Shown here one piece after another: positions 3,615 through 37,104 of a DNA stretch of 37,579 bases. Positions within the stretch are counted from its first letter, which is position 1; each line of letters opens with the position of its first letter. This stretch comes from Ignavibacteriales bacterium (GTDB lineage Bacteria > Bacteroidota > Ignavibacteria > UBA10030). The notes below the pieces were generated by a model. The model had not been told where the DNA came from. It did not search any database and worked only from the letters and a program-made list of their open reading frames with translations. The DNA lies in the NCBI GenBank assembly GCA_016186715.1, contig JACPLA010000074.1, positions 70,452 through 108,030 of the forward strand. The letters are read 5' to 3'. The position numbers and the translations under genes were made by a program.

Positions 3615-4454
3615 TTGTTTGGTTTTTTGATGGGTTGGATTCTTGACGGACTAAACATACTCTTACCGGCGTTCTATTTCCTTGTTGTTTGGACGTACGG
3701 CAAGGCTTTCTTTGCCGATCTCGCCTGGGCCAAGGCCGTCAAAACGATTCTCCTGGCCTCAACGCTTGCCCTGCATTCCTTGTACCTCATTGTCCGCACT
3801 ATCGAATTTGATCACCCGCCTGTCACAACGGTCTTTGAGATTCTGACCGTCCGGGCGTTCTCGGTCGCCCTTGCTTACCTGCTCATCGAGCTCAGGTCAA
3901 AGGCAAAAGAGACCGGGTATTTCATCATCAATATCGCTTTCTTCTTTCAGTTCATCTCATCGGTTTTCATTCGCGATCTGGTGGAGGTCCCCGAAATCCT
4001 GAAGAGCACCTTCTTCGGACTGCATGTCGGAGCTGCACTACTGGGTTATGCTGCAATTACGCTTTCAGCTGTGTACGGGTTTCTCTACTTGATGTTGTAC
4101 CACGAAATCAAAGCGAGCAAATTTGGGATGATCTACAAGAAACTGCCGACCCTGGAAACGCTTGAGCGAATGAGTTTCACCGCGTTCTCTATGGCATTTG
4201 CCTTCCTGGGGATCGCCATCGTGGTTGGATTCCTCTGGCTTCCCCGGACCTTCCTCGAGGTTTCCTATACGGATCCCAAGCTGGTGGGGACGATCCTTCT
4301 CTGGCTTCTTTATGGGACGGGCATACTGGCAAAACGATTGGGTGAATGGAAGGGACGGAAGGTAATGATCCTTTCCGTCGTCGGGTTCGGAGTGACCATC
4401 TTTTCCATGACTGCCATCAACATCTTCTTCACGGGGTTTCACAAGTTCTACTGA
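3615..4454 (+). CDS. Cytochrome c assembly (CcsA/HemX-like) integral membrane protein
   Basis: Multi-TM protein with HVGAALLGYAAITLSAVYGFLYL; first gene of the heme cluster; TTG start at 3615 or, more likely, ATG at 3630. Confidence 0.82.
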   Translation: MFGFLMGWILDGLNILLPAFYFLVVWTYGKAFFADLAWAKAVKTILLASTLALHSLYLIVRTIEFDHPPVTTVFEILTVRAFSVALAYLLIELRSKAKETGYFIINIAFFFQFISSVFIRDLVEVPEILKSTFFGLHVGAALLGYAAITLSAVYGFLYLMLYHEIKASKFGMIYKKLPTLETLERMSFTAFSMAFAFLGIAIVVGFLWLPRTFLEVSYTDPKLVGTILLWLLYGTGILAKRLGEWKGRKVMILSVVGFGVTIFSMTAINIFFTGFHKFY

Positions 4455-4455
4455 G

Positions 4456-5733
4456 ATGAACCTGTCCTGCATCGGCATATCGCATCACACGGCCCCTCTG
4501 GAATCAAGGGAGCGCGTGTGGTTTTCGCCCGAGGAAATTCGTTCGGCCCTTCCGCTGCTGCAGGAACAGGGAATCCAAGAAGCCGTGCTCTTCTCGACCT
4601 GTAATCGAACAGAACTGTACACCTTCTTCGACGGCAGCGTCGACCAGGCACCGCTGATCGATTTCATCCGGAACCAAAAATCCGCTCCGGACGTCCCGAT
4701 TTCGCAGTTTTTTACACTTCACGGCCGGGAAGCGGTCGACCATCTACTTCGCGTCGCAACAGGTATCGATTCCCTGGTCATCGGAGACGCACAGATTCTT
4801 TCCCAGGTGAAAGAGGGATTGAACCTTGCCCGGGATGCCGGCACCGCAGGGTTTCTCCTTACCAAGCTTTTTCAGGCGGCATTCCACACGGCGAAGCGGG
4901 CACGGGCCAAAACCCGGATCGGCGAAGGAGCGGTATCGGTTAGCTACGCTGCCGTTGAACTTGCTGAAAGGATTTTTGACGACTTCAGCCGGCGAAGTGC
5001 TCTTGTGATCGGCGCAGGTGAAATGGCGCAACTCACAGCCAAATACCTCAAAGGAAGAAATATCGGCAACTTGTTCATCACGAATCGGACCGAGCAACGG
5101 TCCGAACAACTTGCTGCCATGGTTGGCGGCACCGTGCTCCCGTTTAATGTTTTTTCCGATACGCTTGACTCCATGGACATCATCATATCGTCGGTCTCCG
5201 TCGACCAGTACATCTTAACGGCGGACGATATCAAGAAAATCAACAAGCAGAGACACGCAACGGCATTGTTTATTATCGACATCGGCGTTCCCCGAAGCAT
5301 CGACCCCTCCGTCAAAAAGCTTGAAAACGTTTTCTTGTACGATCTTGACAGCCTGAACGGACTTGTCAACGAGAACGAGCAAAAACGAAGGGACGAAGTT
5401 CCTAAGGTGGAGACCATCGTCAGTAAAGAACTGGTTGCCTTTGAGGAGTGGTTTTCGAGCCTGGAAGCAACTCCCACCATTGCTGCGCTCAAAGAGCTGG
5501 TCGAGGAGATTCGAAGGGAAGAAGTTGAAAAAAACATCAACCGGTTTGACCCGAAGGACCGTGAGCTCGTTGAGATTCTTACGAAACGGATTGCCAACAA
5601 GATTCTCCATACCCCCATCGTCAATTTGAAGAACGGTAAAGACGAATCTCACTCAGAACAACTTCGGAAAATCAGCTCGCTTCGCAGATTGTTCGGAATC
5701 GATGAGAAAAGGGATTCTGTGAATGGCCGATAA
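4456..5733 (+). CDS. hemA: Glutamyl-tRNA reductase
   Basis: GISHHTAPLESRERV, FSTCNRTELY, GREAVDHLLRVATGIDSLVIGDAQILSQVKEG, VIGAGEMAQLTAKYL. Confidence 0.97.
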   Translation: MNLSCIGISHHTAPLESRERVWFSPEEIRSALPLLQEQGIQEAVLFSTCNRTELYTFFDGSVDQAPLIDFIRNQKSAPDVPISQFFTLHGREAVDHLLRVATGIDSLVIGDAQILSQVKEGLNLARDAGTAGFLLTKLFQAAFHTAKRARAKTRIGEGAVSVSYAAVELAERIFDDFSRRSALVIGAGEMAQLTAKYLKGRNIGNLFITNRTEQRSEQLAAMVGGTVLPFNVFSDTLDSMDIIISSVSVDQYILTADDIKKINKQRHATALFIIDIGVPRSIDPSVKKLENVFLYDLDSLNGLVNENEQKRRDEVPKVETIVSKELVAFEEWFSSLEATPTIAALKELVEEIRREEVEKNINRFDPKDRELVEILTKRIANKILHTPIVNLKNGKDESHSEQLRKISSLRRLFGIDEKRDSVNGR

Positions 5734-6691
5734 ACATCTTGTGATCGGGACGCGCGGTAGCGACCTCGCCCTCTGGCAAAGCACCCATATAAAGACCCTC
5801 CTGGAAACACATCCCGCCGGCCTCACTGTTGAGCTGAAGACAATCAGAACGACCGGAGACAAAATCCTGGATTCTCCTCTTTCCAAGATCGGCGATAAAG
5901 GACTCTTCACCAAAGAACTGGAACATGCCCTTCTGGACCAAGCCATAGATCTCGCAGTCCACAGCCTCAAAGATATCCCGACTCAGATCCCAGAGGGACT
6001 GGCGATCGGTGCCGTAACTCAACGGGAGGATGTGCGAGACGTTTTTGTTTCACACCCGTCAAAGGGGCATAAGCATCTCAGCGATCTTCCCTCCGGGGCG
6101 GTACTTGCCACAGGAAGTCTTCGGAGGCGGTGTCAGCTTCTTCAAATCCGACCGGACTTCAAGATCGTGGATATTCGCGGGAATCTCGCGACGCGGATGA
6201 AAAAACTTGAGGAATCGGACTGGGATGGAATGTTACTTGCGCGCGCCGGGATGTTGAGGCTTGGATGGGAAAGCAGAATCACGGAAATCCTTCCGCCTGA
6301 AACCGTTCTTCCCGCCGTCGGTCAGGGAGCTCTTGGCATTGAGATTCGTGAAAACGATGAAGCCCTTCGTTCCCTCCTTTCGTTCGTCCACGACCAAGAC
6401 ACAGCCGCGGCCGTGAAGGGTGAACGTGCGCTCCTCAGATGGTTGGAGGGAGGTTGTCAGGTTCCGATCGGCACCTACGGACGAATGGAGGCAGGAGCGT
6501 TCTTCCTGGACGCCATGATTGGAAGCCTGGACGGCAAGCGAGTTGTCCGAGGAAACATCAGCGGCCCCCCCGATGAATCCGAAAAACTGGGTGTGCAACT
6601 CGCGCAACAGCTCTTCTCCAAAGGTGGGAAAACTATTCTCGACGAAATCCGATCGACATTGTCCGACGTTCCGGGGGTCAGTCCTCCATGA
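5723..6691 (+). CDS. hemC: Hydroxymethylbilane synthase (porphobilinogen deaminase)
   Basis: IGTRGSDLALWQ, DKGLFTKELEHALLDQAIDLAVHSLKDIPT, GSLRRRCQLL, LEGGCQVPIG; overlaps the end of hemA. Confidence 0.97.
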   Translation: MADKHLVIGTRGSDLALWQSTHIKTLLETHPAGLTVELKTIRTTGDKILDSPLSKIGDKGLFTKELEHALLDQAIDLAVHSLKDIPTQIPEGLAIGAVTQREDVRDVFVSHPSKGHKHLSDLPSGAVLATGSLRRRCQLLQIRPDFKIVDIRGNLATRMKKLEESDWDGMLLARAGMLRLGWESRITEILPPETVLPAVGQGALGIEIRENDEALRSLLSFVHDQDTAAAVKGERALLRWLEGGCQVPIGTYGRMEAGAFFLDAMIGSLDGKRVVRGNISGPPDESEKLGVQLAQQLFSKGGKTILDEIRSTLSDVPGVSPP

Positions 6692-7464
6692 GCAGCCTTT
6701 CCGGTAAGACCATCCTTTTGACCCGGTCCGAGGAAGCAAATGTGGAACTTGCGCGGCTCTTTGAAAAACATGGCGCCCAAACACTTTCCTTGCCAACGGT
6801 TCATTTTGTTGAGCCTGATTCCTGGGAGCAATGCGACGCCGCCATCACCAACCTTCGCGAATATGACGGCATTCTCTTTACGAGCAAAAACGCCGTGACC
6901 TCATTTTTGACAAGACTCGAGTCGTTTGGCGGTCAGGCGCGATCGCTGCTTGCAAGCCGGGCACTCTACGCGATCGGTGAGAAAACACAAGAAGCTCTCG
7001 AATCGGCCGGTTTCGCGGTCGCAGCATCGCCGGAAATTGCCGCCGCAGACGACCTTACCGAACTGCTTGGCGAGGAGGCAATCAGAGGAAAGCGGTTTCT
7101 TTTTCCAAAAAGCAACATCGCCCGGGCCATTCTTCCAAACGCCTTGCGGGCGCTCAACGCGGTCGTTGATGAAGTAGTAGTCTACAAGAACGAACCGCCC
7201 ACAGGTCAGGATCTCGATCAAGTCCGGGAGGTGTTGCTTCAGCGTCGAGTGGACACCGTGACCTTCTTCAGTCCTTCGGCCGTCAGGAACTTTGTTCAGC
7301 TTCTTGGAACAAGACATTTGGAAAGCACGACGGTAGCCGTCATCGGTCCGACGACGGCACAGGCCGCCGGGGACGTCGGCGTGAGAGTTGATGTTGTCGC
7401 CCCCCGGGCAACGGCTGAAGCCCTCATCGAATCCCTCGAACGGTATTTTCTTTCGCCGACATGA
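6688..7464 (+). CDS. hemD: Uroporphyrinogen-III synthase
   Basis: ILLTRSEEANVELARLFEKHGAQ...DGILFTSKNAVTSFL...TVTFFSPSAVRNFVQLL...VAVIGPTTAQAA; 4-bp overlap with hemC. Confidence 0.92.
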   Translation: MSSLSGKTILLTRSEEANVELARLFEKHGAQTLSLPTVHFVEPDSWEQCDAAITNLREYDGILFTSKNAVTSFLTRLESFGGQARSLLASRALYAIGEKTQEALESAGFAVAASPEIAAADDLTELLGEEAIRGKRFLFPKSNIARAILPNALRALNAVVDEVVVYKNEPPTGQDLDQVREVLLQRRVDTVTFFSPSAVRNFVQLLGTRHLESTTVAVIGPTTAQAAGDVGVRVDVVAPRATAEALIESLERYFLSPT

Positions 7465-8513
7465 CACAATCCGTAACGAACGATCTTTTTCTTCGAGCTT
7501 GCCGCCGTGAACCTGTAAAACGGACACCTGTCTGGATGATGCGGCAAGCAGGCCGTTATTTACCCGAGTATCGGGCCATCCGCGCCAAAACGGATTTTCT
7601 CACACTGTGCAGGACTCCCGAGCTTGTCTCTGAAGTTTCGATTCAACCCGTGGAATTGATCGGGGTCGATGCCTGCATCGTCTTCTCCGATATTCTCGTT
7701 GTTCCCGAGGCAATGGGGATGGAATTAATCGTTGACGAAGGAAAAGGCGGACCGCGCTTTCCACAGCCCGTTCGCTCGCGTGATGATATCGACCGGCTGG
7801 CGGTTCCGGATCCCCATGACAGGCTCAAATACGTGTTAGACGCAGTCGCTTTAACAAAGAAGAACCTGAACGGACGCGTTCCCTTGATTGGATTCGCGGG
7901 TTCGCCCTGGACGCTGGCAACCTACATGGTGGAGGGAAGAGGTTCAAAGAACTTCCGTTATGTCAAAGAACTGATTTACTCAAACCCGAAGGACGCCCAT
8001 CGACTTCTGGAAAAGCTTGCGCGATCGGTGGCGGAATACCTGAATGCGAAACTGGAAGCCGGCGCTCAAGCCGTCCAGATTTTTGACACCTGGGGCGGCA
8101 TCCTTCCTCCGGACGAGTTCAGAGAATTTTCGCTTCATTACATCGAGCACGTTCTCAGTCTCCTGAAAAAAAACGGCGCCCCGGTCATTGTGTTTTGTAA
8201 GGATTCCAATCACTCACTCGAAGCGATTGCCGACCTTGCCCCCGACGTCATCGGACTTGACTGGACCATCGACATCGGAAAGGCCAGGATGCTGGTGGGG
8301 TCGCAAGTTTCCTTACAGGGGAACCTGGACCCAACCATGTTGTACGCCCCGCCGGAGACAATCCGAAGCGGTGTCATTCGGATACTCGAGAAGTACGGCA
8401 AAGGGTCCGGACACATCTTTAATCTCGGACATGGGATTCTGCCCGATGTCCCCGTCGAGCACGCCAAAGAATTCGTGCGAGCGGTCCAAGAAGAGAGCAG
8501 ACGGTTTCATTAA
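7461..8513 (+). CDS. hemE: Uroporphyrinogen decarboxylase
   Basis: PVWMMRQAGRYLPEYR, GFAGSPWTLATYMVEG, IFDTWGG, LQGNLDP, NLGHGILPD; 4-bp overlap with hemD. Confidence 0.98.
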   Translation: MTQSVTNDLFLRACRREPVKRTPVWMMRQAGRYLPEYRAIRAKTDFLTLCRTPELVSEVSIQPVELIGVDACIVFSDILVVPEAMGMELIVDEGKGGPRFPQPVRSRDDIDRLAVPDPHDRLKYVLDAVALTKKNLNGRVPLIGFAGSPWTLATYMVEGRGSKNFRYVKELIYSNPKDAHRLLEKLARSVAEYLNAKLEAGAQAVQIFDTWGGILPPDEFREFSLHYIEHVLSLLKKNGAPVIVFCKDSNHSLEAIADLAPDVIGLDWTIDIGKARMLVGSQVSLQGNLDPTMLYAPPETIRSGVIRILEKYGKGSGHIFNLGHGILPDVPVEHAKEFVRAVQEESRRFH

Positions 8514-8594
8514 CAAGAGCTGTTTGTTCTGGCATAAGTTCTCCGGCCTTCTTACATTTTCTCAAAGTCGTTATCCTTCCACGTTTTTTCGCTG

Positions 8595-9482
8595 ATGATT
8601 TCGAAAACCACTCAGGTCCGACAGTATTTTGAAATCCTCCAGGATTCGACCTGCGCGCGTCTTGAACAGTTGGAGAGCGGTCATCGATTCATTGAGGATC
8701 GCTGGATTCACCACGAGGGCGGCGGCGGGCAGACAAGGATCCTTCAAAATGGCGTTATCTTTGAAAAAGGGGGGGTGAACACTTCAGCAGTTCGCGGAAC
8801 CCTCTCAGATTCCCTTGCCCGCCGTCTGGAAGTCAACCCCCAGCGTTACTCCGCTTCCGGTATTTCTCTCGTCCTTCATCCCGTGAGCCCCATGATCCCT
8901 ACGGTTCATACCAATTTCCGGTATTTCGAGCTCGAGGATGGAGCATGGTGGTTTGGAGGCGGTGCCGACCTGACGCCGTATTACCTTTTTGAAGACGATG
9001 TCCGTCACTTCCATCGTGTTTGGAAGCAAGCATGCGACGCTGTCGATCCCTCCTACCACAAAAAGTTTAAGCAATGGTGTGATGAATATTTCTTTCTTCC
9101 CCACCGCCTCGAGGCACGAGGCGTGGGGGGAATCTTCTTTGACTATCTCAAAGGGGATTTCGAAATCCTCTTTAGGTTTATCAGAACTTGCGGTAATTCC
9201 TTCCTGGAATCGTATGTCCCCATCGTTGAAACGAGACTAAACGAGCCGTGGGGAGAACATGAAAAGGAATGGCAGCTTCTCCGGAGAGGAAGGTATGTCG
9301 AGTTTAATCTTTTGTACGACAGGGGGACGGCGTTTGGACTGGAGTCACGAGGCCGGGTGGAGTCAATCCTCATGTCCCTTCCTCCTGCTGTCCGATGGCG
9401 ATATAACTTCGAACCGTCGGCGGGATCGCGGGAAGATGCCCTGGTTCAGGTTCTTCGCACCCCGCGCGAATGGATCCAATAG
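8595..9482 (+). CDS. hemF: Oxygen-dependent coproporphyrinogen III oxidase
   Basis: GGGQTRILQNGVIFEKGGVNTSAV, PMIPTVHTNFRYFE, WWFGGGADLTPYYLFEDDVRHFH, FNLLYDRGTAFGLESRGRVESILMSLPP. Confidence 0.97.
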   Translation: MISKTTQVRQYFEILQDSTCARLEQLESGHRFIEDRWIHHEGGGGQTRILQNGVIFEKGGVNTSAVRGTLSDSLARRLEVNPQRYSASGISLVLHPVSPMIPTVHTNFRYFELEDGAWWFGGGADLTPYYLFEDDVRHFHRVWKQACDAVDPSYHKKFKQWCDEYFFLPHRLEARGVGGIFFDYLKGDFEILFRFIRTCGNSFLESYVPIVETRLNEPWGEHEKEWQLLRRGRYVEFNLLYDRGTAFGLESRGRVESILMSLPPAVRWRYNFEPSAGSREDALVQVLRTPREWIQ

Positions 9483-9529
9483 ACGATGCGACACGAATGA
9501 AAACGGAAAAACAGACGGAGCGCTCGTAA

Positions 9530-10600
9530 ATGTCGAAGAAAATCGCCGTCGTCACCTTCCAGCTCGGTGGTCCGGATTCCGTTGAAGCCGTTGAACCGTT
9601 TTTGAACAATCTCTTTCTCGACCCGGATATCATCGACTTTCCGGGAGCATTTCTTGCCCGCAAGTTTCTGGCCAAAACCATCGCGTCCCGACGATCGAAA
9701 CCCGTCGGAGAACACTACTTGGAAATCGGCGGAAAATCACCGATCAATGAACTGACCGACAGACAGGTTCGAGCCCTTGAACGCCTGTTGCGTACCAGAA
9801 ATATTGATGCCCGTGTTTTCGTTGCCATGCGGTACTGGCATCCCATGACAGACGAGGTTGTCAAGGCCGTCAAGAAGGGAGGGTATGATCGACTCATCCT
9901 TCTTCCTCTCTATCCTCAATTCTCCAAGGCCACAACGTACTCCAGCTTGAACGAATGGCGACGACAGAGCCTCCGACTCGGTCTCGAAATTCCACACAAC
10001 CTCATTTGCTGCTATCCGAACCATCACTTGTACATCGAGGCCCTTGTTCAGAATATCCACGTTTCCTTTGAGCGATTCAGAGGAGCCCGTCAGGAAGAGG
10101 TGGATCTTTTGTTTAGTGCCCACGGTGTTCCGGTCGATTTCATACGCCGCGGGGATCCCTACAAGCTCCAGGTGGAAGAGACGGTGCGACAGGTACTGAG
10201 GCAGGGAAACTGGAAAAGTCCGGCACTTCTATGTTACCAGAGCAAGGTTGGCCCTTCACGTTGGCTTGAGCCGTCTCTTCATCAGAGTATCCGCAGTCTT
10301 GCTGCAAAAGGGAGAAAACACCTTCTTGTCGTGCCGATCGCGTTCGTGACCGAACACATCGAAACGCTCCACGAGATCAATATCGAAGCCCGTGAAGAGG
10401 CTGTTCATCTGGGTGTTCGCCAATTCGAAATGATGCCGGCGTTGAACGATCATCCGAAGTTCATCGAGTGTCTTGCAGATCTTGTTGAACTGAGGCTGGC
10501 CTCCAATTCCCAGGAATATTCGAAATGCCGTGTTTTTTACGAAGGACAAGAAAAGAAGGACGAACCCCGCTTATGTCCCTGGTATCATTTGAGCTCCTAA
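9530..10600 (+). CDS. hemH: Ferrochelatase
   Basis: VVTFQLGGPDSVEAVEPFLNNLF, AMRYWHP, LPLYPQFSKATTYSS, FSAHGVPVDFI, CYQSKVGPSRWLEPS, VPIAFVTEHIETLHEI. Confidence 0.96.
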   Translation: MSKKIAVVTFQLGGPDSVEAVEPFLNNLFLDPDIIDFPGAFLARKFLAKTIASRRSKPVGEHYLEIGGKSPINELTDRQVRALERLLRTRNIDARVFVAMRYWHPMTDEVVKAVKKGGYDRLILLPLYPQFSKATTYSSLNEWRRQSLRLGLEIPHNLICCYPNHHLYIEALVQNIHVSFERFRGARQEEVDLLFSAHGVPVDFIRRGDPYKLQVEETVRQVLRQGNWKSPALLCYQSKVGPSRWLEPSLHQSIRSLAAKGRKHLLVVPIAFVTEHIETLHEINIEAREEAVHLGVRQFEMMPALNDHPKFIECLADLVELRLASNSQEYSKCRVFYEGQEKKDEPRLCPWYHLSS

Positions 10601-10731
10601 TGTCTCGGCACACAAGTTTCTTGAATAAGTCCGCAAAACAAAAGCAGGCAAAACAAACGGATTCGCCCGAATGTACTGCAAGGATTAATTCAAGGAATTT
10701 CTGGGACTCGACACTAACATCCTCTTGAAGA

Positions 10732-12168
10732 ATGAATCCAAAGAAGGTTGACGTTGTCATTGTCGGGGGCGGGATCTCCGGGTTATGTGCGGCGCATTGG
10801 CTTGCCAAACGGGGCGTTGATGTTCTCCTCCTTGAAAAGGACGCCGAAGTGGGAGGCACAATGAAAACAGTGCGGGAGCAGGGATATCTTGTCGAAACCG
10901 GTCCTAACAGTGCGCTTGAAACGACGTCGCTCTTCCGCGAGCTTGTGACCGATCTTTCGCTCGAATCGGAGTTTCTGTATGCCAATCCCTCCGGCAAGAA
11001 GCGCTACGTACTCCGAGAGGGCCAGCTTCGGGCCCTTCCCCTTTCCCCACCTGCCTTCCTGACCTCACGGCTTTTTTCAGCAAAAGCGAAGCTGAGGGTT
11101 CTCAAAGAACCTTTCATCGGGCGTGCGACACATGAAGAGAGTATTGCAGAATTTGTGATCCGTCGCCTCGGCAGGGAATTTCTGGACTACGCGATCGATC
11201 CCTTCGTTGCCGGCGTGTACGCGGCACGTCCGGAACACCTCAGTGTGCAAGCCGCGTTCCCGAAACTCTATGCGCTGGAAGAGCGGTATGGCGGGCTTGT
11301 CAGGGGAATGATCAAAGGGCGCAAAGAACGCACGAAACGAGGTGAGAAAGGAAAGGACCGTGCAGAGACGTTTTCATTCCGCCACGGCATGCAGGTGCTC
11401 CCGCTTGCGCTGGCCCAATCCCTTGGAGACCGCGTCATTTGCCGCTCGAAGGTAACGTTGGTTCAGGATCTCACGCTTGACACCACGATACCGGTGGATG
11501 AACCGGGTGCGCGTCATTTCCGCGTGGAATTCCTCCTCGGGGATCAAAGCTCCGAGGTTGAAGCGGACGTCGTCATCCTGGCCGTTCCGACGGCGGCTGC
11601 AGCATCGCTGATACAACCGTTTTCAAGAGAAACTGCACAAGATCTCAGGAATATTCACTACCCTCCCGTTGCTTCTGTCTTCCTCGGATATGCTCAAGAT
11701 CAGATTGGACATTCCCTTGACGGATTCGGTTTTCTCGTCCCGTCAAAGGAGAGCCGATCAATCCTTGGAAGCCTCTGGTCGTCCAGTCTCTTTCCTGAAA
11801 GGGCTCCCCGCGGCTATGCAGGGCTGACAACGTTTGTGGGTGGAAGCCGGCAACCAGAACTGGTTGAGAAATCCGAAGGTGTCCTCATCGATCTTGTCGC
11901 AGGCGAACTAGAAACTGCTATGCAAGTTCGAGGAAAACCCGTATATTGGAAGGTGACAAAATGGCCACGGGCGATTCCGCAGTATGAACTGGGCTATCTC
12001 CGCACGATGGACGGCCTCGGCCGTTTTGAGGAGGAGCATCCCGGATTGTTCCTTTCCGGCAACTACCGGGGTGGCATTTCGGTGGGTGATTGTGTCACCA
12101 ATGCCTCGGCGATGGCCGAACGTGTAGGAAAGTACCTCAGTCTGCCGGCGGTTCGTTCGATTGCGTAA
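10732..12168 (+). CDS. hemY: Protoporphyrinogen oxidase, HemY/PPOX type
   Basis: VVIVGGGISGLCAAHWLAKRGVDVLLLEKDAEVGGTMKT, GPNSALET, DPFVAGVYA, LFLSGNYRGGISVGDCV. Confidence 0.93.
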   Translation: MNPKKVDVVIVGGGISGLCAAHWLAKRGVDVLLLEKDAEVGGTMKTVREQGYLVETGPNSALETTSLFRELVTDLSLESEFLYANPSGKKRYVLREGQLRALPLSPPAFLTSRLFSAKAKLRVLKEPFIGRATHEESIAEFVIRRLGREFLDYAIDPFVAGVYAARPEHLSVQAAFPKLYALEERYGGLVRGMIKGRKERTKRGEKGKDRAETFSFRHGMQVLPLALAQSLGDRVICRSKVTLVQDLTLDTTIPVDEPGARHFRVEFLLGDQSSEVEADVVILAVPTAAAASLIQPFSRETAQDLRNIHYPPVASVFLGYAQDQIGHSLDGFGFLVPSKESRSILGSLWSSSLFPERAPRGYAGLTTFVGGSRQPELVEKSEGVLIDLVAGELETAMQVRGKPVYWKVTKWPRAIPQYELGYLRTMDGLGRFEEEHPGLFLSGNYRGGISVGDCVTNASAMAERVGKYLSLPAVRSIA

Positions 12169-30582: not shown

Positions 30583-31338
30583 TTGATGAACCTCATGAAA
30601 TCGCTTCTTCTCCTGTCTGCGTTTGTCACCGGCATGCTGTTTTCCCAATCTGCACAAGAGATTGTCACAAAGTCCGAAAGCCTCCTCAAAGGTGAAACCT
30701 CCAAAGGCAAATTCCGGATGACCATTGTGACCCAAGAGTATACCAGGACTATGGAAATGGACAGTTGGTGGGTTGGGAATGAAAAAGCCCTGATCGTCGT
30801 CACCTCTCCCCGGCGTGAGGCCGGGAACAAGACTCTCAAAGTCGAAAACGAATTGTGGATGTATCTGCGAAATACGGAGACCACAATCAAAGTCCCCCCT
30901 TCCATGATGCTCCAGTCGTGGAACGGCTCCGATTTCACGAATGACGATCTGGTGAGGGAATCCAGTCTTGTCGACGATTATATCCTGAAAACCCTTGGCG
31001 AAGAAAGGGTCGGGTCGGAGACGGCCTGGAAGATTGAACTCCAGCCAAAGCCCACGGCTCCCGTGGTGTGGGGAAGGATCGTCCATTGGATACGGAAGCA
31101 GGATTATCTCCCGGCCCGGACTGAATATTACGATGAAAAGGGAACCCTCGTGCGAACGATGGAATATTCGGATTTCAGAGAATTCGACGGACGAAGAATC
31201 CCGGCGACATGGAGAATGATCAACAATGTAAAGCCGGGCCGCGAAACCAGGTTCGAGTACCTCACTGTCGATTTCAACGTCAAGATCAGCGACCGGATTT
31301 TTTCTTTTCAGGAACTTGAAAAAGGAGGAGGCCGGTGA
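30583..31338 (+). CDS. Outer membrane lipoprotein-sorting (LolA-like) periplasmic protein
   Basis: Signal peptide; MTIVTQEYTRTMEMDSWWVGNEKALIVVTSPRREAGNKTLKVENELWMYLR... and WRMINNVKPGRETRFEYLTVDFNVKISDRIFS resemble the LolA-like sorting-protein family; start could be 30586 or 30595. Confidence 0.85.
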   Translation: MMNLMKSLLLLSAFVTGMLFSQSAQEIVTKSESLLKGETSKGKFRMTIVTQEYTRTMEMDSWWVGNEKALIVVTSPRREAGNKTLKVENELWMYLRNTETTIKVPPSMMLQSWNGSDFTNDDLVRESSLVDDYILKTLGEERVGSETAWKIELQPKPTAPVVWGRIVHWIRKQDYLPARTEYYDEKGTLVRTMEYSDFREFDGRRIPATWRMINNVKPGRETRFEYLTVDFNVKISDRIFSFQELEKGGGR

Positions 31339-32561
31339 GCCTGCTTCTCAAACTCGGCTGGCGAAACATCTGGCGGAACAAGCGCCGGTCGATTATCACT
31401 ATTTTGGCGGTTACGTTCGCCGTTATGCTATCCATTGCGATGCGGGGCATCCAACTCGGGACCTACGACGTCAACATCAGACACGTCGTCGAACTGTTCG
31501 CAGGGTACATTCAAATCCAGGTTCCCGGTTACCAGAAAAACCCAACTCTGCAAAAGAGCTTTTCGCCCACCGATCGTCTTCTCGCTTTCATGAGGAGCGA
31601 CTCCCGGATTGTTGGATCTGCTCCGAGAATTGTCGGCGACGGTCTCGTCAGTCTCCGCGACAAGTCTCAGGGGGCTTTGCTGTTTGGAGTCTCCCCGAAT
31701 GACGAAAGGCTCGCTTCCAAGCTCATGGGCAGGGTGGTTCACGGGAGATTCCTGCTTGAAGGTCAGGACACCGAAGTGGTTGTCGGCGACAAGCTTTTCG
31801 AAAACCTCTCCGCCTCTATCGGCGAACAGATCGTCGTTCTGGCACAGGGGTACGACGGTTCACTGGGTAACCTGAAATTCACCATCGTTGGGACAGTAAA
31901 GACCGGAATGCCGGAATTCGATCAGAGCTCGGTCTTCATGACGCTCCCGGCTGCGCAAGAGCTCCTCGTGATGGACGGAAAGGTCAGCGTGTTGACGCTT
32001 CGACTGCGCGACCTTTCTGAAATTGATCCTGTTAAGGAGTCGCTCCGGGAGCCTCTTGGCGAAGGGCTGGTCGCTCTTTCCTGGAAAGAAGTCCTGCCCG
32101 ACTTTGACCAGAGTATTCAGCTTGACAACGTGAGCGGAATGCTGACGCTTGCCATTCTGATCATTGTCGTGGCATTCGGAATCACCAATACGGTCCTGAT
32201 GTCCGTCACGGAGCGTTTCCGTGAATTCGGGATTATTCTTTCCGTCGGAATGCAGCCGAAGAAGCTTGTCGTGCTTGTCTTCCTCGAAACGATGATAATC
32301 GTCCTCATCGGCCTCATCCTCGGAAATGTGCTTGCGGCGGGGATCAATCTGTACATCATGAACAATCCGATCGTATTTTCAGGAGATTTTGAGCAGATGT
32401 ATGCCGAGTACGGATTCCTTCCGCGCCTTGAATCTACCCTTCGCCTTTCTTCGTTTCTCAACATTTCCCTCTCGGTTCTCGGGATTTCGGTGATTGCAAT
32501 GTTCTATCCGATCGCAAAGGTCATTCGTCTTGAACCTCTGAAAGGTATCCGGCACACGTAA
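31335..32561 (+). CDS. FtsX-type ABC transporter permease (LolC/E-like)
   Basis: N-terminal GWRNIWRNKRRSIITILAVTFAVML, periplasmic MacB_PCD-like domain, FtsX C-terminal TMs; GTGA overlap with upstream stop and GGAGGAG SD. Confidence 0.92.
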   Translation: MSLLLKLGWRNIWRNKRRSIITILAVTFAVMLSIAMRGIQLGTYDVNIRHVVELFAGYIQIQVPGYQKNPTLQKSFSPTDRLLAFMRSDSRIVGSAPRIVGDGLVSLRDKSQGALLFGVSPNDERLASKLMGRVVHGRFLLEGQDTEVVVGDKLFENLSASIGEQIVVLAQGYDGSLGNLKFTIVGTVKTGMPEFDQSSVFMTLPAAQELLVMDGKVSVLTLRLRDLSEIDPVKESLREPLGEGLVALSWKEVLPDFDQSIQLDNVSGMLTLAILIIVVAFGITNTVLMSVTERFREFGIILSVGMQPKKLVVLVFLETMIIVLIGLILGNVLAAGINLYIMNNPIVFSGDFEQMYAEYGFLPRLESTLRLSSFLNISLSVLGISVIAMFYPIAKVIRLEPLKGIRHT

Positions 32562-33775
32562 TGATCTTTAAGCTGGCCTGGAGAAACATCTGGAGAAATA
32601 AGCGGCGTTCGGTCGTCGTGATGACTTCGGTTGCCGTCGGCGTCATCGCCACCTTGTTGATGGACACACTCTCCCGCGGAATGATCTATCAGATGTTGTA
32701 TAACCAGATTGGATCCCACGTGGCCCATCTACAGATCCACAGGCAGGGGTTCAGGGACAATCCGATTATTCAAAACAACATTCCGGATGCTGCAGTTGTT
32801 GAGCGGGCCGTGAGTTCCACTCCGGGGATTTCCCATTACAGCTCCCGCATCCTCACCTACGGGCTTCTCAGCAGCGCAGCCGCCTCCTCCGGAGTTTTCC
32901 TGATCGGAATTGATCCTGACCAGGAGGGTCAGATCACCACAATAAAAGGATCGCTGGCAGCCGGAACTTATCTTTCAGGGGGGCCGAACGAGGCCGTTAT
33001 CGGTCAAAGTTTGGCGGAGAAACTTGGGGTGGGCCTCGGCGACCGGGTGGTTGGTATGGCGTCGGCCCTTGATGGTCACGTCGGCTCGGACGTGTTCAGA
33101 ATCGTCGGCCTGTATGAAACGCTCAGTTCTGAATTCGACAAGTCATTCATCTACATTGCGCGGGACAATGCCCAAGAGATGCTGGGAGTAGGGGATCTTG
33201 TGTCGGAGTTTGCCATTCGTATCAACGACATTAGTCAGCTCCACACGATCCAGGATCGACTGCTGGAGGAACTCGGGGAAGAGTACGAAGTGTTCACCTA
33301 CCCCGAGATTCTTCCGTTTCTCGTCCTCCAGATCGATTTGTATGAACAGTCCATGATCATATTCTATGCCATCATCGGCATTGCGCTCATCTTCGGAATC
33401 ATCAATACCATGCTCATGTCGGTCTTTGAAAGGATCAGGGAGTTCGGAGTTTTGAAGGCGGTCGGCATGAAAGACCGCCGCCTCCTGATGATGATTGTCT
33501 TAGAGGCTTTCTTGCTCGGCATCATCGGGACGGGAATCGGTTTCATTGTCGGGTATCTCATTTATCTCCCTTTGGCTAGAACGGGATTGGATCTCAGCAT
33601 GTTTTCAGAGAGCCTGCGATCCTGGGGAGTCGGCGCTATCATTTATCCGGTTCTCACCTGGAATGTTATTGCCAATGCCTTGCTTATCATTCCCATCTTC
33701 GCAGTGCTTGGTGCTCTCTATCCGGCTTTTCGGGCTGGCCGACTTCAACCGATGGCTGCTATTCGATACGTCTAG
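32561..33775 (+). CDS. FtsX-type ABC transporter permease (LolC/E-like), paralogue of preceding gene
   Basis: FKLAWRNIWRNKRRSVVVMTSVAV..., FGIINTMLMSVFERIREFGVLKAVGMKDRRL; TAATG junction. Confidence 0.92.
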   Translation: MIFKLAWRNIWRNKRRSVVVMTSVAVGVIATLLMDTLSRGMIYQMLYNQIGSHVAHLQIHRQGFRDNPIIQNNIPDAAVVERAVSSTPGISHYSSRILTYGLLSSAAASSGVFLIGIDPDQEGQITTIKGSLAAGTYLSGGPNEAVIGQSLAEKLGVGLGDRVVGMASALDGHVGSDVFRIVGLYETLSSEFDKSFIYIARDNAQEMLGVGDLVSEFAIRINDISQLHTIQDRLLEELGEEYEVFTYPEILPFLVLQIDLYEQSMIIFYAIIGIALIFGIINTMLMSVFERIREFGVLKAVGMKDRRLLMMIVLEAFLLGIIGTGIGFIVGYLIYLPLARTGLDLSMFSESLRSWGVGAIIYPVLTWNVIANALLIIPIFAVLGALYPAFRAGRLQPMAAIRYV

Positions 33776-33784
33776 GTCTCTCTG

Positions 33785-34501
33785 ATGAATCCAACTGACA
33801 CGACAGAACACGAAGAGATCATTCGAACTGAGGATCTCGGAAAGATCTACGAGGAGAACGGAATTCCAGTACACGCTCTCCGGGGTGTCACCACAATCGT
33901 ACACAAGGGGGATTTCCTCGTGATTGCCGGACCCTCGGGATCGGGCAAGACAACCCTGCTGAATCTTATAGGAGCCTTGGACAGGCCATCCCGGGGGAAA
34001 GTGTTTTTTGAGGGAAGGGATCTGAGCAAGAAATCAAAGTCGGAACTCGCCTCGATCCGGCTTCATCGGCTCGGCTTCATTTTCCAGGCCTACAACTTGA
34101 TTCCTGTCTTGACGGCGCTCGAGAACGTTGAATTCACGATGATGCTGCTTGGAGTTTCCGAAGCAGAGAGACGAAAGCAGGCGATGGCCACTCTGCAGGA
34201 GCTCGGCATTGACGAACTGGTCCATAAGCGGCCGAACGAAATGAGTGGGGGTCAGCAGCAAAGGGTTGCCATTGCCCGCGCCATTGTCACGCGTCCGGCC
34301 GTCGTTCTTGCAGACGAACCTACAGCGAACCTCGATTCCACCACCGGAGCATCGCTTCTTGATTTGATGGAACGAATGAACAAGGATAAGAATATCACCT
34401 TTGTTTTCTCCTCTCATGATCCCCAGGTAATCCAACGGGGGCGGCGGTTGATCCTGTTGCATGACGGAACAATCAAATCAGAACAAAGTCGCACCCGTTG
34501 A
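33785..34501 (+). CDS. ABC transporter ATPase (LolD/MacB-like)
   Basis: Walker A GPSGSGKTT, LGFIFQAYNLIPVLTALENV, signature MSGGQQQRVAIARAI, Walker B VVLADEPTANLDS. Confidence 0.95.
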   Translation: MNPTDTTEHEEIIRTEDLGKIYEENGIPVHALRGVTTIVHKGDFLVIAGPSGSGKTTLLNLIGALDRPSRGKVFFEGRDLSKKSKSELASIRLHRLGFIFQAYNLIPVLTALENVEFTMMLLGVSEAERRKQAMATLQELGIDELVHKRPNEMSGGQQQRVAIARAIVTRPAVVLADEPTANLDSTTGASLLDLMERMNKDKNITFVFSSHDPQVIQRGRRLILLHDGTIKSEQSRTR

Positions 34502-35652
34502 AGATCATGCAACTACGGGTTTTCCCGCTTGTTGCATTCGCCGCAGGCATACTCAGCGCTCAGGAGAATTTTCGCTTTTCGGGTTACGCCGTACATTTTC
34601 CGGTCTATCAAAGGATGAATGCCTTCCTTGCCCGACTTGTCACTGCCGAGCAGAACCAATTCGTGGACGTGACGAGGGTGAGGCTTCGGCCCTCGGCAGG
34701 CTTATGGGCCAAGGCATTTCTTATGGTCGAGTATGAATTCAACGCGACGTACACTTCCAGCCCCTTTCTCTTTTCTCCCTCTGCTTCACGGAGCCAGAAG
34801 CAAGTCCTCGACCTGACGTGGAATCCGGTACACCAGGGAAGATGGAACGTGGTCCATTATGTGGATCGTGCTTACGTCAGGCAAAGCTCCCCGTTCGGAG
34901 ATCTTACGATCGGACGACAGCGGATTTCCTGGGGAACGGGTAGAGTTTGGAACCCCACCGATCTGTTCAATCCGATCAATCCGGTTGCATTCAGCAAACT
35001 GGAAAAAGATGGCATCGATGCCGTCATGGCAAAATTCGTTGCGGGAAATCTTACGGATCTCTCTCTGGTTTACAATCCATACGATCGTTTCCGCAAGGCG
35101 CAGTACGGGGGGCGTTTCAGAACGAATTACGAAGGGTTCGATTTCTCGGTGATGGGTGGTCTTTTCGGGGAACGTATTGCCCTTGGAGCGGATTTTGCAG
35201 GGAGTCTCTTCGACACAGGTATTCGGGGAGAGGGAATTATTTCAGGATCGCGAACGCGCTTTGCGGAAAACTTTGCAAAGTACATCCTTGGAATCGATAA
35301 TCAGTTCACGGGGAAGTTATATGCCATGATGGAGTATCACTACAACGGCCAGGGAAAGAATCAGCGGTTTGCCTACGAGTTGAATCGGCTCGTCGACGGG
35401 GAAATCTTGAACCTCGGCAAGCACTACGCCACGGGCCAGATCTCCTACCTGATCCACCCGCTTGTCTTTGTTTCGGTCACCCTCAATCGCAGTTTTACCG
35501 ACGGGAGTGGATTCGTGGGAGGCACAGCGGCGTATTCCGCTTCGGACGAAATCAGTATCGCACTGGGGAGCCAGTACTTCTTTGGGAAACAGTTTGACGA
35601 ATACTGGTACTATCCGTCCACGGTATACGGGAAGATCGATATCTACTTCTAG
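34498..35652 (+). CDS. Outer-membrane beta-barrel protein
   Basis: Signal peptide, alternating amphipathic strands, DLTIGRQRISWGTGRVWNPTDLFNPINP, C-terminal YGKIDIYF beta-signal-like end with terminal Phe; 4-bp overlap with the ATPase gene. Confidence 0.8.
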   Translation: MKIMQLRVFPLVAFAAGILSAQENFRFSGYAVHFPVYQRMNAFLARLVTAEQNQFVDVTRVRLRPSAGLWAKAFLMVEYEFNATYTSSPFLFSPSASRSQKQVLDLTWNPVHQGRWNVVHYVDRAYVRQSSPFGDLTIGRQRISWGTGRVWNPTDLFNPINPVAFSKLEKDGIDAVMAKFVAGNLTDLSLVYNPYDRFRKAQYGGRFRTNYEGFDFSVMGGLFGERIALGADFAGSLFDTGIRGEGIISGSRTRFAENFAKYILGIDNQFTGKLYAMMEYHYNGQGKNQRFAYELNRLVDGEILNLGKHYATGQISYLIHPLVFVSVTLNRSFTDGSGFVGGTAAYSASDEISIALGSQYFFGKQFDEYWYYPSTVYGKIDIYF

Positions 35653-35785: not shown

Positions 35786-36757
35786 TCAAATCTTTTTCAT
35801 CGAATCGTCAGGCGCAGCTACCCGCAGGAATCGGGGGACAACCGAGATCTCGCAGGGGAGAAAACCAATCAATTCTCCGTCGGCTTCGAGAGCGACGTGT
35901 TCCGGCGAACTGATCCTGATTTTCTTCGCTTTCCGGTGTTCTATCCATGAAAGATCGATATGCTTTCCTGTGTAGATCTTCGGGAAATTGATCAGCCGGG
36001 ATGCAACCGACTGATCTTTGATCACAAGAAGATCCAGAAGTCCGTCGTCAACACGGGAAGCCGGGGCGAAGTCCATTCCGCCCCCCGCGTAGCGACCGTT
36101 TGCCGCGGTTACACCAAGGAATCTGCCTGAAATCCAGTCAGTTCCGTCCGCAGAGACAGACATATATCGTGCCCGGTAGGTCAGCGCCGTCAGCGTCGAT
36201 CCAATCCCGAATGCAAGGAATCCTCCCAATCGTTTGAGTGCGGGGGTGACTCTCCGCACCACCATGGCCGCAATTCCGGGCTGGCAGTCGTTAATAAAGA
36301 ACCGATCCAGCTGGTTGCCGTCGCGTGAGTGAAACGACACTTTGCCGAGGTCAATCATGCGGGAAAGATTCCCTGCAACGATGTCAAGTTGTGTCGAAAG
36401 GTTATCGGGAAGATTGAGATTTCTCGCAACGTCCTTTGCCGTGCCGATACAGAGGAAGCCAAGGCGGGCGTGCGCATTGACATGTTTTTCCTTATCAAGG
36501 AAGCCGTTGACGACTTCGTTTATTGTTCCGTCACCGCCGACAGCGACGACGAGGTTCGTTCCGGCGTTGAGAGCTTGACGAGTGATTTCCGTTGCATGAC
36601 CTTGATTCGTCGTCACGTCGAGGACAAATCCCCCCGGAAATTTTTCCTCGATGGCCAGGAGCAGGGACGCCTGAATCCTTCCGGTTTTTCCCGCGGACGC
36701 GGCCGGATTAAGGATGAAATGGGGGAGGGCCGTTCTTTCCCGATGTTTCTTTGCCAT
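35786..36757 (-). CDS. Diacylglycerol kinase-family lipid kinase
   Basis: FILNPAASAGKTGR, VVAVGGDGTINEVVNGFL, LGFLCIGTAKDVARNLNLP, IDLGKV; ORF track start at 36886 overlaps an upstream terminator, MAKKHRE at 36757 preferred. Confidence 0.9.
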   Translation of the reverse strand: MAKKHRERTALPHFILNPAASAGKTGRIQASLLLAIEEKFPGGFVLDVTTNQGHATEITRQALNAGTNLVVAVGGDGTINEVVNGFLDKEKHVNAHARLGFLCIGTAKDVARNLNLPDNLSTQLDIVAGNLSRMIDLGKVSFHSRDGNQLDRFFINDCQPGIAAMVVRRVTPALKRLGGFLAFGIGSTLTALTYRARYMSVSADGTDWISGRFLGVTAANGRYAGGGMDFAPASRVDDGLLDLLVIKDQSVASRLINFPKIYTGKHIDLSWIEHRKAKKIRISSPEHVALEADGELIGFLPCEISVVPRFLRVAAPDDSMKKI

Positions 36758-36831
36758 ACCGAGCCTTTGAACGATGCCGCTCAAAGTAGCTCTTTTCCTC
36801 ACGAGACTCAACGGCGCCTGCCGGCTCGAAA

Positions 36832-36864
36832 GAAAAAAGGCGACATGCTTTTTGCACGTCGCCT
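36832..36864 (-). terminator. Rho-independent terminator of the PUR-family gene
   Basis: Minus strand AGGCGACGTGC-AAAAA-GCATGTCGCCT followed by TTTTTC; 11-bp stem with one wobble. Confidence 0.85.
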
Positions 36865-36882
36865 CTGGTTCGGCAGCCGGCG

Positions 36883-37104
36883 TCAACCCATGGCGGACGC
36901 CGCTTCATCGATCGCTTTACGGAAATCATGCACAGTATCGCCAAAAATGCGGACGGTTGAACGCTGTTTCTTGTTTTCCCCGTCGATCCTGCTTTCCGAA
37001 ATCGAGATGAATTTGTTGCCGTTCTTCGCCTCTTTGACATCGACGAAGTACGTCGTCCGGCCGGCCCGGACCATTGTCGAGTAGATTGCGCCATTCGCTG
37101 CCAT
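36883..37104 (-). CDS. DUF3276/PUR-family nucleic-acid-binding protein
   Basis: YSTMVRAGRTTYFVDVKEAKNGNKFISISESR...FRKAIDEA, small protein typical of the DUF3276 PUR family; SD GGAGGTTCTC upstream. Confidence 0.85.
   Translation of the reverse strand: MAANGAIYSTMVRAGRTTYFVDVKEAKNGNKFISISESRIDGENKKQRSTVRIFGDTVHDFRKAIDEAASAMG

Follow-up and report, generated by a model that had tools for sequence, protein, structure and literature searches.

A conserved five-gene operon of an Ignavibacteriales bacterium encodes a LolA-like carrier, two FtsX permeases, an ATPase and an outer-membrane barrel, a probable relay exporter related to RND-DUF1329-DUF1302 systems

A stretch of 37,579 nucleotides (nt) from an Ignavibacteriales bacterium (GenBank assembly GCA_016186715.1, contig JACPLA010000074.1, positions 70,452 to 108,030), referred to here as the window, contains an operon whose products appeared to cover the whole cell envelope. 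Five genes on the plus strand, at positions 30583-35652, specify a LolA-like carrier, two FtsX permeases (FtsX1 and FtsX2), a LolD-like ATP-binding cassette (ABC) ATPase and an outer-membrane beta-barrel (Table 1). This gene content, originally predicted from the sequence alone, is confirmed by Pfam matches and, for the barrel, by a structural model. The predicted junctions of the GTGA, TAATG and ATGA types are found in part. The first two are present, as a 4-nt overlap of lola and ftsX1 and a 1-nt overlap of ftsX1 and ftsX2, but ftsX2 and lolD are separated by a 9-nt gap without overlap. The 4-nt overlap of lolD and the barrel gene is TTGA with a TTG start, an alternative ATG being located 9 nt downstream within the gene. 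Across related loci, the median intergenic gaps are 1-19 nt. Scanning for promoters and terminators revealed no signal stronger than in shuffled sequence.

Table 1. Genes of the operon, with positions in the window
Product	Position	Strand	Evidence and remarks
Periplasmic carrier, PF17131 LolA_like, 251 aa	30583..31338	+	Pfam 1.3e-55; Sec-type signal peptide; TTG start (ATG 3 nt further on)
FtsX1, first MacB/FtsX-type permease, 408 aa	31335..32561	+	FtsX and MacB_PCD domains
FtsX2, second MacB/FtsX-type permease, 404 aa	32561..33775	+	FtsX and MacB_PCD domains
LolD/MacB-type ABC ATPase, 238 aa	33785..34501	+	ABC_tran 1.1e-32; LolD model 223 bits, cut-off of 307.75 not reached
Outer-membrane beta-barrel, 384 aa	34498..35652	+	TTG start, ATG at 34507; AlphaFold2 fold, conserved loop motif

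In total, 297 genomes of the phylum were searched with the carrier. Relatives were detected in 94 of them, 66 reaching an E value of 1e-40 or better. The regions around 60 matches and 80 further named loci were annotated for open reading frames (ORFs) and family profiles. Removal of duplicates left 115 loci, of which 81 extend for 5.5 kb or more beyond the carrier gene on its downstream side. The exact order lola-ftsX1-ftsX2-lolD-barrel is present in 64 of these 81 loci, and the barrel adjoins the transporter in 77, in 76 by annotation and in one (L071) on a merged frame. Only L065, L139, L153, and L167 are without an adjacent barrel. In records labelled Gammaproteobacteria, Betaproteobacteria, Chromatiales, Piscinibacter, and WOR-1, the content is retained, with either an ATPase gene further forward or a fusion of both permeases. 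The five-gene content is found in dozens of genomes from several phyla, which is beyond chance, and its survival through rearrangement argues for a functional unit. The dedicated, conserved trans-envelope route of the original prediction, which had called for such a neighbourhood search, is borne out in this respect. Among five genomes of the same family, one (G078) has no carrier match and another (G097) a weak one only, and the five-gene system is therefore accessory. No published description of the ABC-type operon was found in the open literature, subscription papers and preprints being outside the scope of the search.

A third arrangement, consisting of an ATPase, a single FtsX protein, a carrier and a barrel, is found in other loci and, within the source genome, on contig C43. 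On C43 (L016:4096-5991; L003:318-2214) the genes for a LolD-like, a single FtsX and a LolA_like protein are followed by a barrel gene split into two ORFs in different frames, so that, in this genome, either the barrel gene is disrupted or its assembly is faulty. Other variants are two distinct LolA-like ABC systems arranged head to tail in L066:1-8495, lold-ftsx-ftsx-lola followed by lola-ftsx1-ftsx2-lold-barrel, and operons with three FtsX genes, ftsx1 being duplicated (L122 and L158).

Since the permeases and the ATPase resemble LolCDE in layout, they had been regarded as possibly LolC/LolE-like, and a check for a separate canonical Lol system had been proposed. Such a system is present. A search of the source genome for PF03548 revealed one LolA, encoded on contig C21 and distinct from the operon carrier, and a canonical LolC/E pair is encoded on contig C127. 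Pairs of this kind were detected in 21 of 21 genomes of the relatives search. The best NCBIfam match of the operon permeases is TIGR02212 lolCE, with 111.6 bits for FtsX1 and 129.5 bits for FtsX2, compared with 328 and 303 bits for the C127 pair, which itself stays under the curated cut-off of 362. In a tree of 51 sequences, LolC and LolE of E. coli cluster with the C127 pair (100/99), whereas FtsX1 (100/99) and FtsX2 (99/96) form clades of their own. The Hook of LolC, residues 167-179, recruits LolA; it is reported to be essential in E. coli, and its presence in all Proteobacteria has been predicted (PMC10865981). Without exception, the 95 FtsX1 and 88 FtsX2 sequences (183/183) have an aligned Hook span of 22 residues, compared with 24-29 residues in 45 canonical sequences. 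Judged from this alignment, the operon permeases are without the Hook length and may have a shorter, different contact with the carrier. They do not qualify as a LolC/LolE-like pair.

A LolB-type receptor is missing from the operon as well. No lipoprotein gene is located between the operon genes in any of the 115 loci, extending what had been noticed for the window, and the barrel stands in the position of the receptor; two loci have a possible lipoprotein gene directly downstream. Among the ORFs inserted between operon genes are those for small proteins of four-helix type, for an ATPase and for a protein that binds NAD(P)H, none of them a lipoprotein. Carrier and barrel have Sec-type signal peptides, the lipobox pattern being matched by one of 115 carriers and by none of the barrels. 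With permeases other than LolC/E, no Hook length, a carrier outside PF03548, and no LolB, membership in the Lol family was rejected on all four features tested. The operon is separate from the lipoprotein-sorting Lol pathway of the cell. The profile search also detected neither MacA adaptor nor TolC duct families among the five proteins, by which MacAB-TolC identity was ruled out.

The AlphaFold2 model of the carrier (predicted local distance difference test score, pLDDT, 93.8) was compared with solved structures using Foldseek. P. gingivalis LolA3 (9tp6), a DUF1329 protein (4z48), NE2245 (3buu), and a V. parahaemolyticus protein (3bk5) were matched with template modelling (TM) scores of 0.73-0.79, while canonical LolA structures reach about 0.35-0.47. 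For 4z48, the E value is 1.3e-19 at a TM score of 0.79, and a profile match of 97.6 bits was obtained. The same four proteins rank first in a profile search of PDB sequences. Pfam DUF1329 is matched below its cut-off. The modelled fold is thus of the DUF1329/LolA3 type and not that of canonical LolA, with P. gingivalis LolA3 as the nearest solved structure. The NCBIfam LolA3 model gave weak matches below the cut-off only and was not used for assignment. P. gingivalis LolA3 binds LolB of its own species weakly and is without the LolA arginine; the leucine of LolB is also missing (PMC13103446).

No family was found above cut-off for the barrel in the profile search, the best being Porin_4 with a sub-threshold 8.7e-5, and a sequence search of solved structures revealed no real relative. 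Its AlphaFold2 model (pLDDT 91.8) has about 18 strands, as counted from the listed strands. A loop of 30 residues carries the invariant motif GRQRIxWGxGxVWNPxDLFNP. Solved folds matched by the model are MOMP, AlgE, and OprD-type channels; it is a fold of porin/AlgE type, and no match to Omp85 was obtained.

Carrier and barrel are not confined to the ABC motor. In five loci (L097, L103, L109, L112, and L113), a carrier of the LolA_like family and a barrel are encoded together with an MMPL/RND pump. By hhalign, the barrel family of the window matches the MMPL-linked barrels with 99.9% (E 1e-31), that of L097 with 99.9% (E 2e-32), and that of L113 with 91.6%, compared with 0.3% for FadL and 1.6% for OmpC. 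Several of the RND-linked barrels pass the DUF1302 cut-off, with values of up to 2e-12, and comparison of their profile with DUF1302 proteins of Piscinibacter gave 90.7%. By these homologies of carrier and barrel, the operon is connected to the RND-DUF1329-DUF1302 systems.

Known examples of the latter, with pumps of the HAE3/MMPL type, are AmeABCD of Castellaniella defragrans and PP_0765/PP_0766 with PP_2018/PP_2019 of P. putida (PMC6394551, PMC10866462). Deletion of ameABCD reduces monoterpene tolerance (PMC6394551), and the DUF1302 and DUF1329 proteins of P. putida are required on Tween20 and predicted to bind each other (PMC10866462). An inner-membrane pump, a LolA-superfamily carrier with the DUF1329 fold and an outer-membrane barrel, which in the operon is possibly related to DUF1302, are encoded together in these systems and in the operon. 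The motor differs, the RND pump being replaced in the operon by an ABC transporter with a pair of FtsX permeases and an ATPase, and the operon has no AmeC-like protein. The operon barrel is also shorter, 384 residues versus 573-594 in Piscinibacter DUF1302 proteins, and is not a direct DUF1302 match.

The locus L103 deserves separate mention. Its LolA-like protein matches P. gingivalis LolA3 (9TP6) with 450 bits over 246 residues, and in L103:2906-11262 the carrier gene is flanked by the genes of an MMPL pump and of a DUF1302-scoring barrel, with two genes for ABC-type proteins coming next. This run resembles an operon described in Porphyromonas and Prevotella under hemin or iron limitation. 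In P. gingivalis, an operon for TetR, MMPL, an 'outer membrane lipoprotein-sorting' protein and a hypothetical protein tops the list of genes raised in limited hemin, with log2 changes of 7.4-8.1 (PMC10470040; also PMC10434189). By analogy, the gene for LolA3 appears to lie in this operon. The Bacteroidales arrangement, TetR-MMPL-LolA_like-hypothetical, has an RND motor, and control by hemin or iron is reported for it only.

Regulatory genes are the only other recurrent feature. Of 101 loci, 49 have a TetR gene immediately in front of the operon, compared with 4 of 740 other flanking positions, a contrast somewhat favoured by the fact that the TetR profile was made from upstream genes. Pfam searches of 79 neighbours identified TetR_N in 49 and MarR_2 in seven. 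Apart from these regulators and from housekeeping genes of close relatives, no flanking families recur across the 115 loci. An XFP phosphoketolase-like gene near the Piscinibacter operon was dismissed as a clue to the cargo, being a single case.

From its gene content and its relatives, the operon probably encodes an ABC-powered relay exporter of a hydrophobic or lipid-like molecule, a counterpart of the RND/MMPL-DUF1329-DUF1302 systems of the AmeABCD type. FtsX1, FtsX2 and the ATPase, a type VII transporter like MacB and LolCDE, would use ATP to take a membrane-partitioned molecule from the inner membrane, as has been reported for hydrophobic compounds and the type VII transporter YbbAP (PMC12646458). 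The LolA-like protein would then ferry the molecule through the periplasm, and the 18-stranded barrel would accept it from the carrier for delivery into the outer membrane or across it. In about half of the relatives, a ligand-type repressor may control the system. YbbAP-TesA differs from the operon in having the periplasmic hydrolase TesA as partner, with neither a carrier nor an outer-membrane barrel.

Several observations weigh against a relay exporter of this kind. LolCDE, too, is a type VII transporter, and its cargo is lipoproteins. The fold matches of the barrel (AlgE, MOMP, OprD-like) fit lipid and polar cargo alike. A direct relation of the barrel to DUF1302 is no more than suggestive, the match of the window barrel family to the Piscinibacter proteins being weak (51%) and extending over the GRQxIxWG motif. 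The flanking families of the 115 loci include no biosynthetic gene that accompanies the operon, and the copy in the window, like about half of its relatives, has neither a TetR nor a MarR neighbour.

Surface lipoproteins are common in Bacteroidota, and the operon could represent a second, dedicated Lol-like pathway that delivers a single lipoprotein or a small number of them to the cell surface or the outer membrane, with the barrel in place of LolB, as originally predicted. Two permeases combined with a LolD-like ATPase and a carrier of LolA fold indeed reproduce the layout of LolCDE and LolA, type VII transporter and carrier fold included, and lolCE is the top NCBIfam match of the permeases. 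Moreover, the Borrelia cluster BBJ23-BBJ29, in which a LolA-like carrier, a MacB-like permease, an ATPase and an outer-membrane barrel are likewise encoded together, has been interpreted along these lines (PMC13078400), but it has one homodimeric permease, a barrel of the Omp85 type, and TPR chaperones. The pathway is nevertheless unlikely in view of the separate canonical LolA and LolC/E, the permease clades and Hook span, the DUF1329/LolA3 fold of a carrier that with its barrel also partners MMPL pumps, the lack of lipoprotein genes in the operon, and TetR/MarR control. In contrast, the lipid-like cargo named as an alternative in the original prediction fits well, and that interpretation as a whole is partly supported. 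Neither of the contrary outcomes named with it, a barrel not conserved beside the transporter or an only Lol system with a known substrate-specific porin, was found, because the barrel is conserved and the genome has its own canonical Lol.

Instead of exporting small hydrophobes, the system could transport envelope lipids in bulk or as a specialised class, such as a glycolipid, a sulfonolipid or a hopanoid-like lipid, to build the outer membrane. The fold of the carrier family is compatible with this role, the DUF1329/LolA superfamily distantly resembles the lipid carrier LprG, and hopanoid transporters are among the MMPL/HAE3 relatives (discussed in PMC6394551). However, a close carrier is present in just 66 of the 297 genomes, so that this is not a core function of the envelope, and the regulators are of the inducible type, which makes this explanation quite improbable. 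It is very improbable that the transporter and the carrier act alone, with the barrel as a common substrate-specific porin that is co-transcribed by chance. Porins and AlgE are its best solved folds, but its adjacency to the transporter in nearly all loci persists under shuffled gene order and with the MMPL motor.

The preferred reading, an ABC-powered relay exporter, may be extended to a family in which a DUF1329/LolA3-type carrier and a barrel with the GRQxxxWG loop are fixed while the motors, double-FtsX ABC, single-FtsX ABC or MMPL/RND, are interchangeable. Hydrophobes would be brought to the surface without a periplasm-spanning tunnel, and P. gingivalis LolA3 would be a member carrier and not a lipoprotein chaperone. 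We regard this extension as possible, at slightly less than an even chance. If true, an ATP-driven, carrier-based route would be added to the few known ways for hydrophobic cargo across the Gram-negative envelope, and one carrier-barrel pair would couple to unrelated motors. Many PF17131 proteins annotated as 'outer membrane lipoprotein-sorting protein', the crystallised 'LolA3' included, may then be unrelated to lipoproteins.

Some further genes were noticed within and around the operons. Proteins of about 86-124 residues resembling four-helix 23S intervening-sequence proteins are encoded inside the operon in five loci (L089:9445-9807, L075:7593-7940, L076:6857-7117, L080:9334-9699, and L147:1882-2256). 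Three distant loci (L060:3932-4792, L114:8109-9161, and L182:2217-3083) encode an NAD(P)H-binding, NmrA-like protein within the operon or close to it, possibly a biosynthetic hint. At 3615-12168 of the window, some 18 kb away from the operon, the translations resemble those of a cluster for haem biosynthesis (hemA, C, D, E, F, H, and protoporphyrinogen oxidase). Directly downstream of the barrel gene and convergent to it, a YegS/diacylglycerol-kinase-like lipid kinase is encoded at 35786-36886 on the minus strand.

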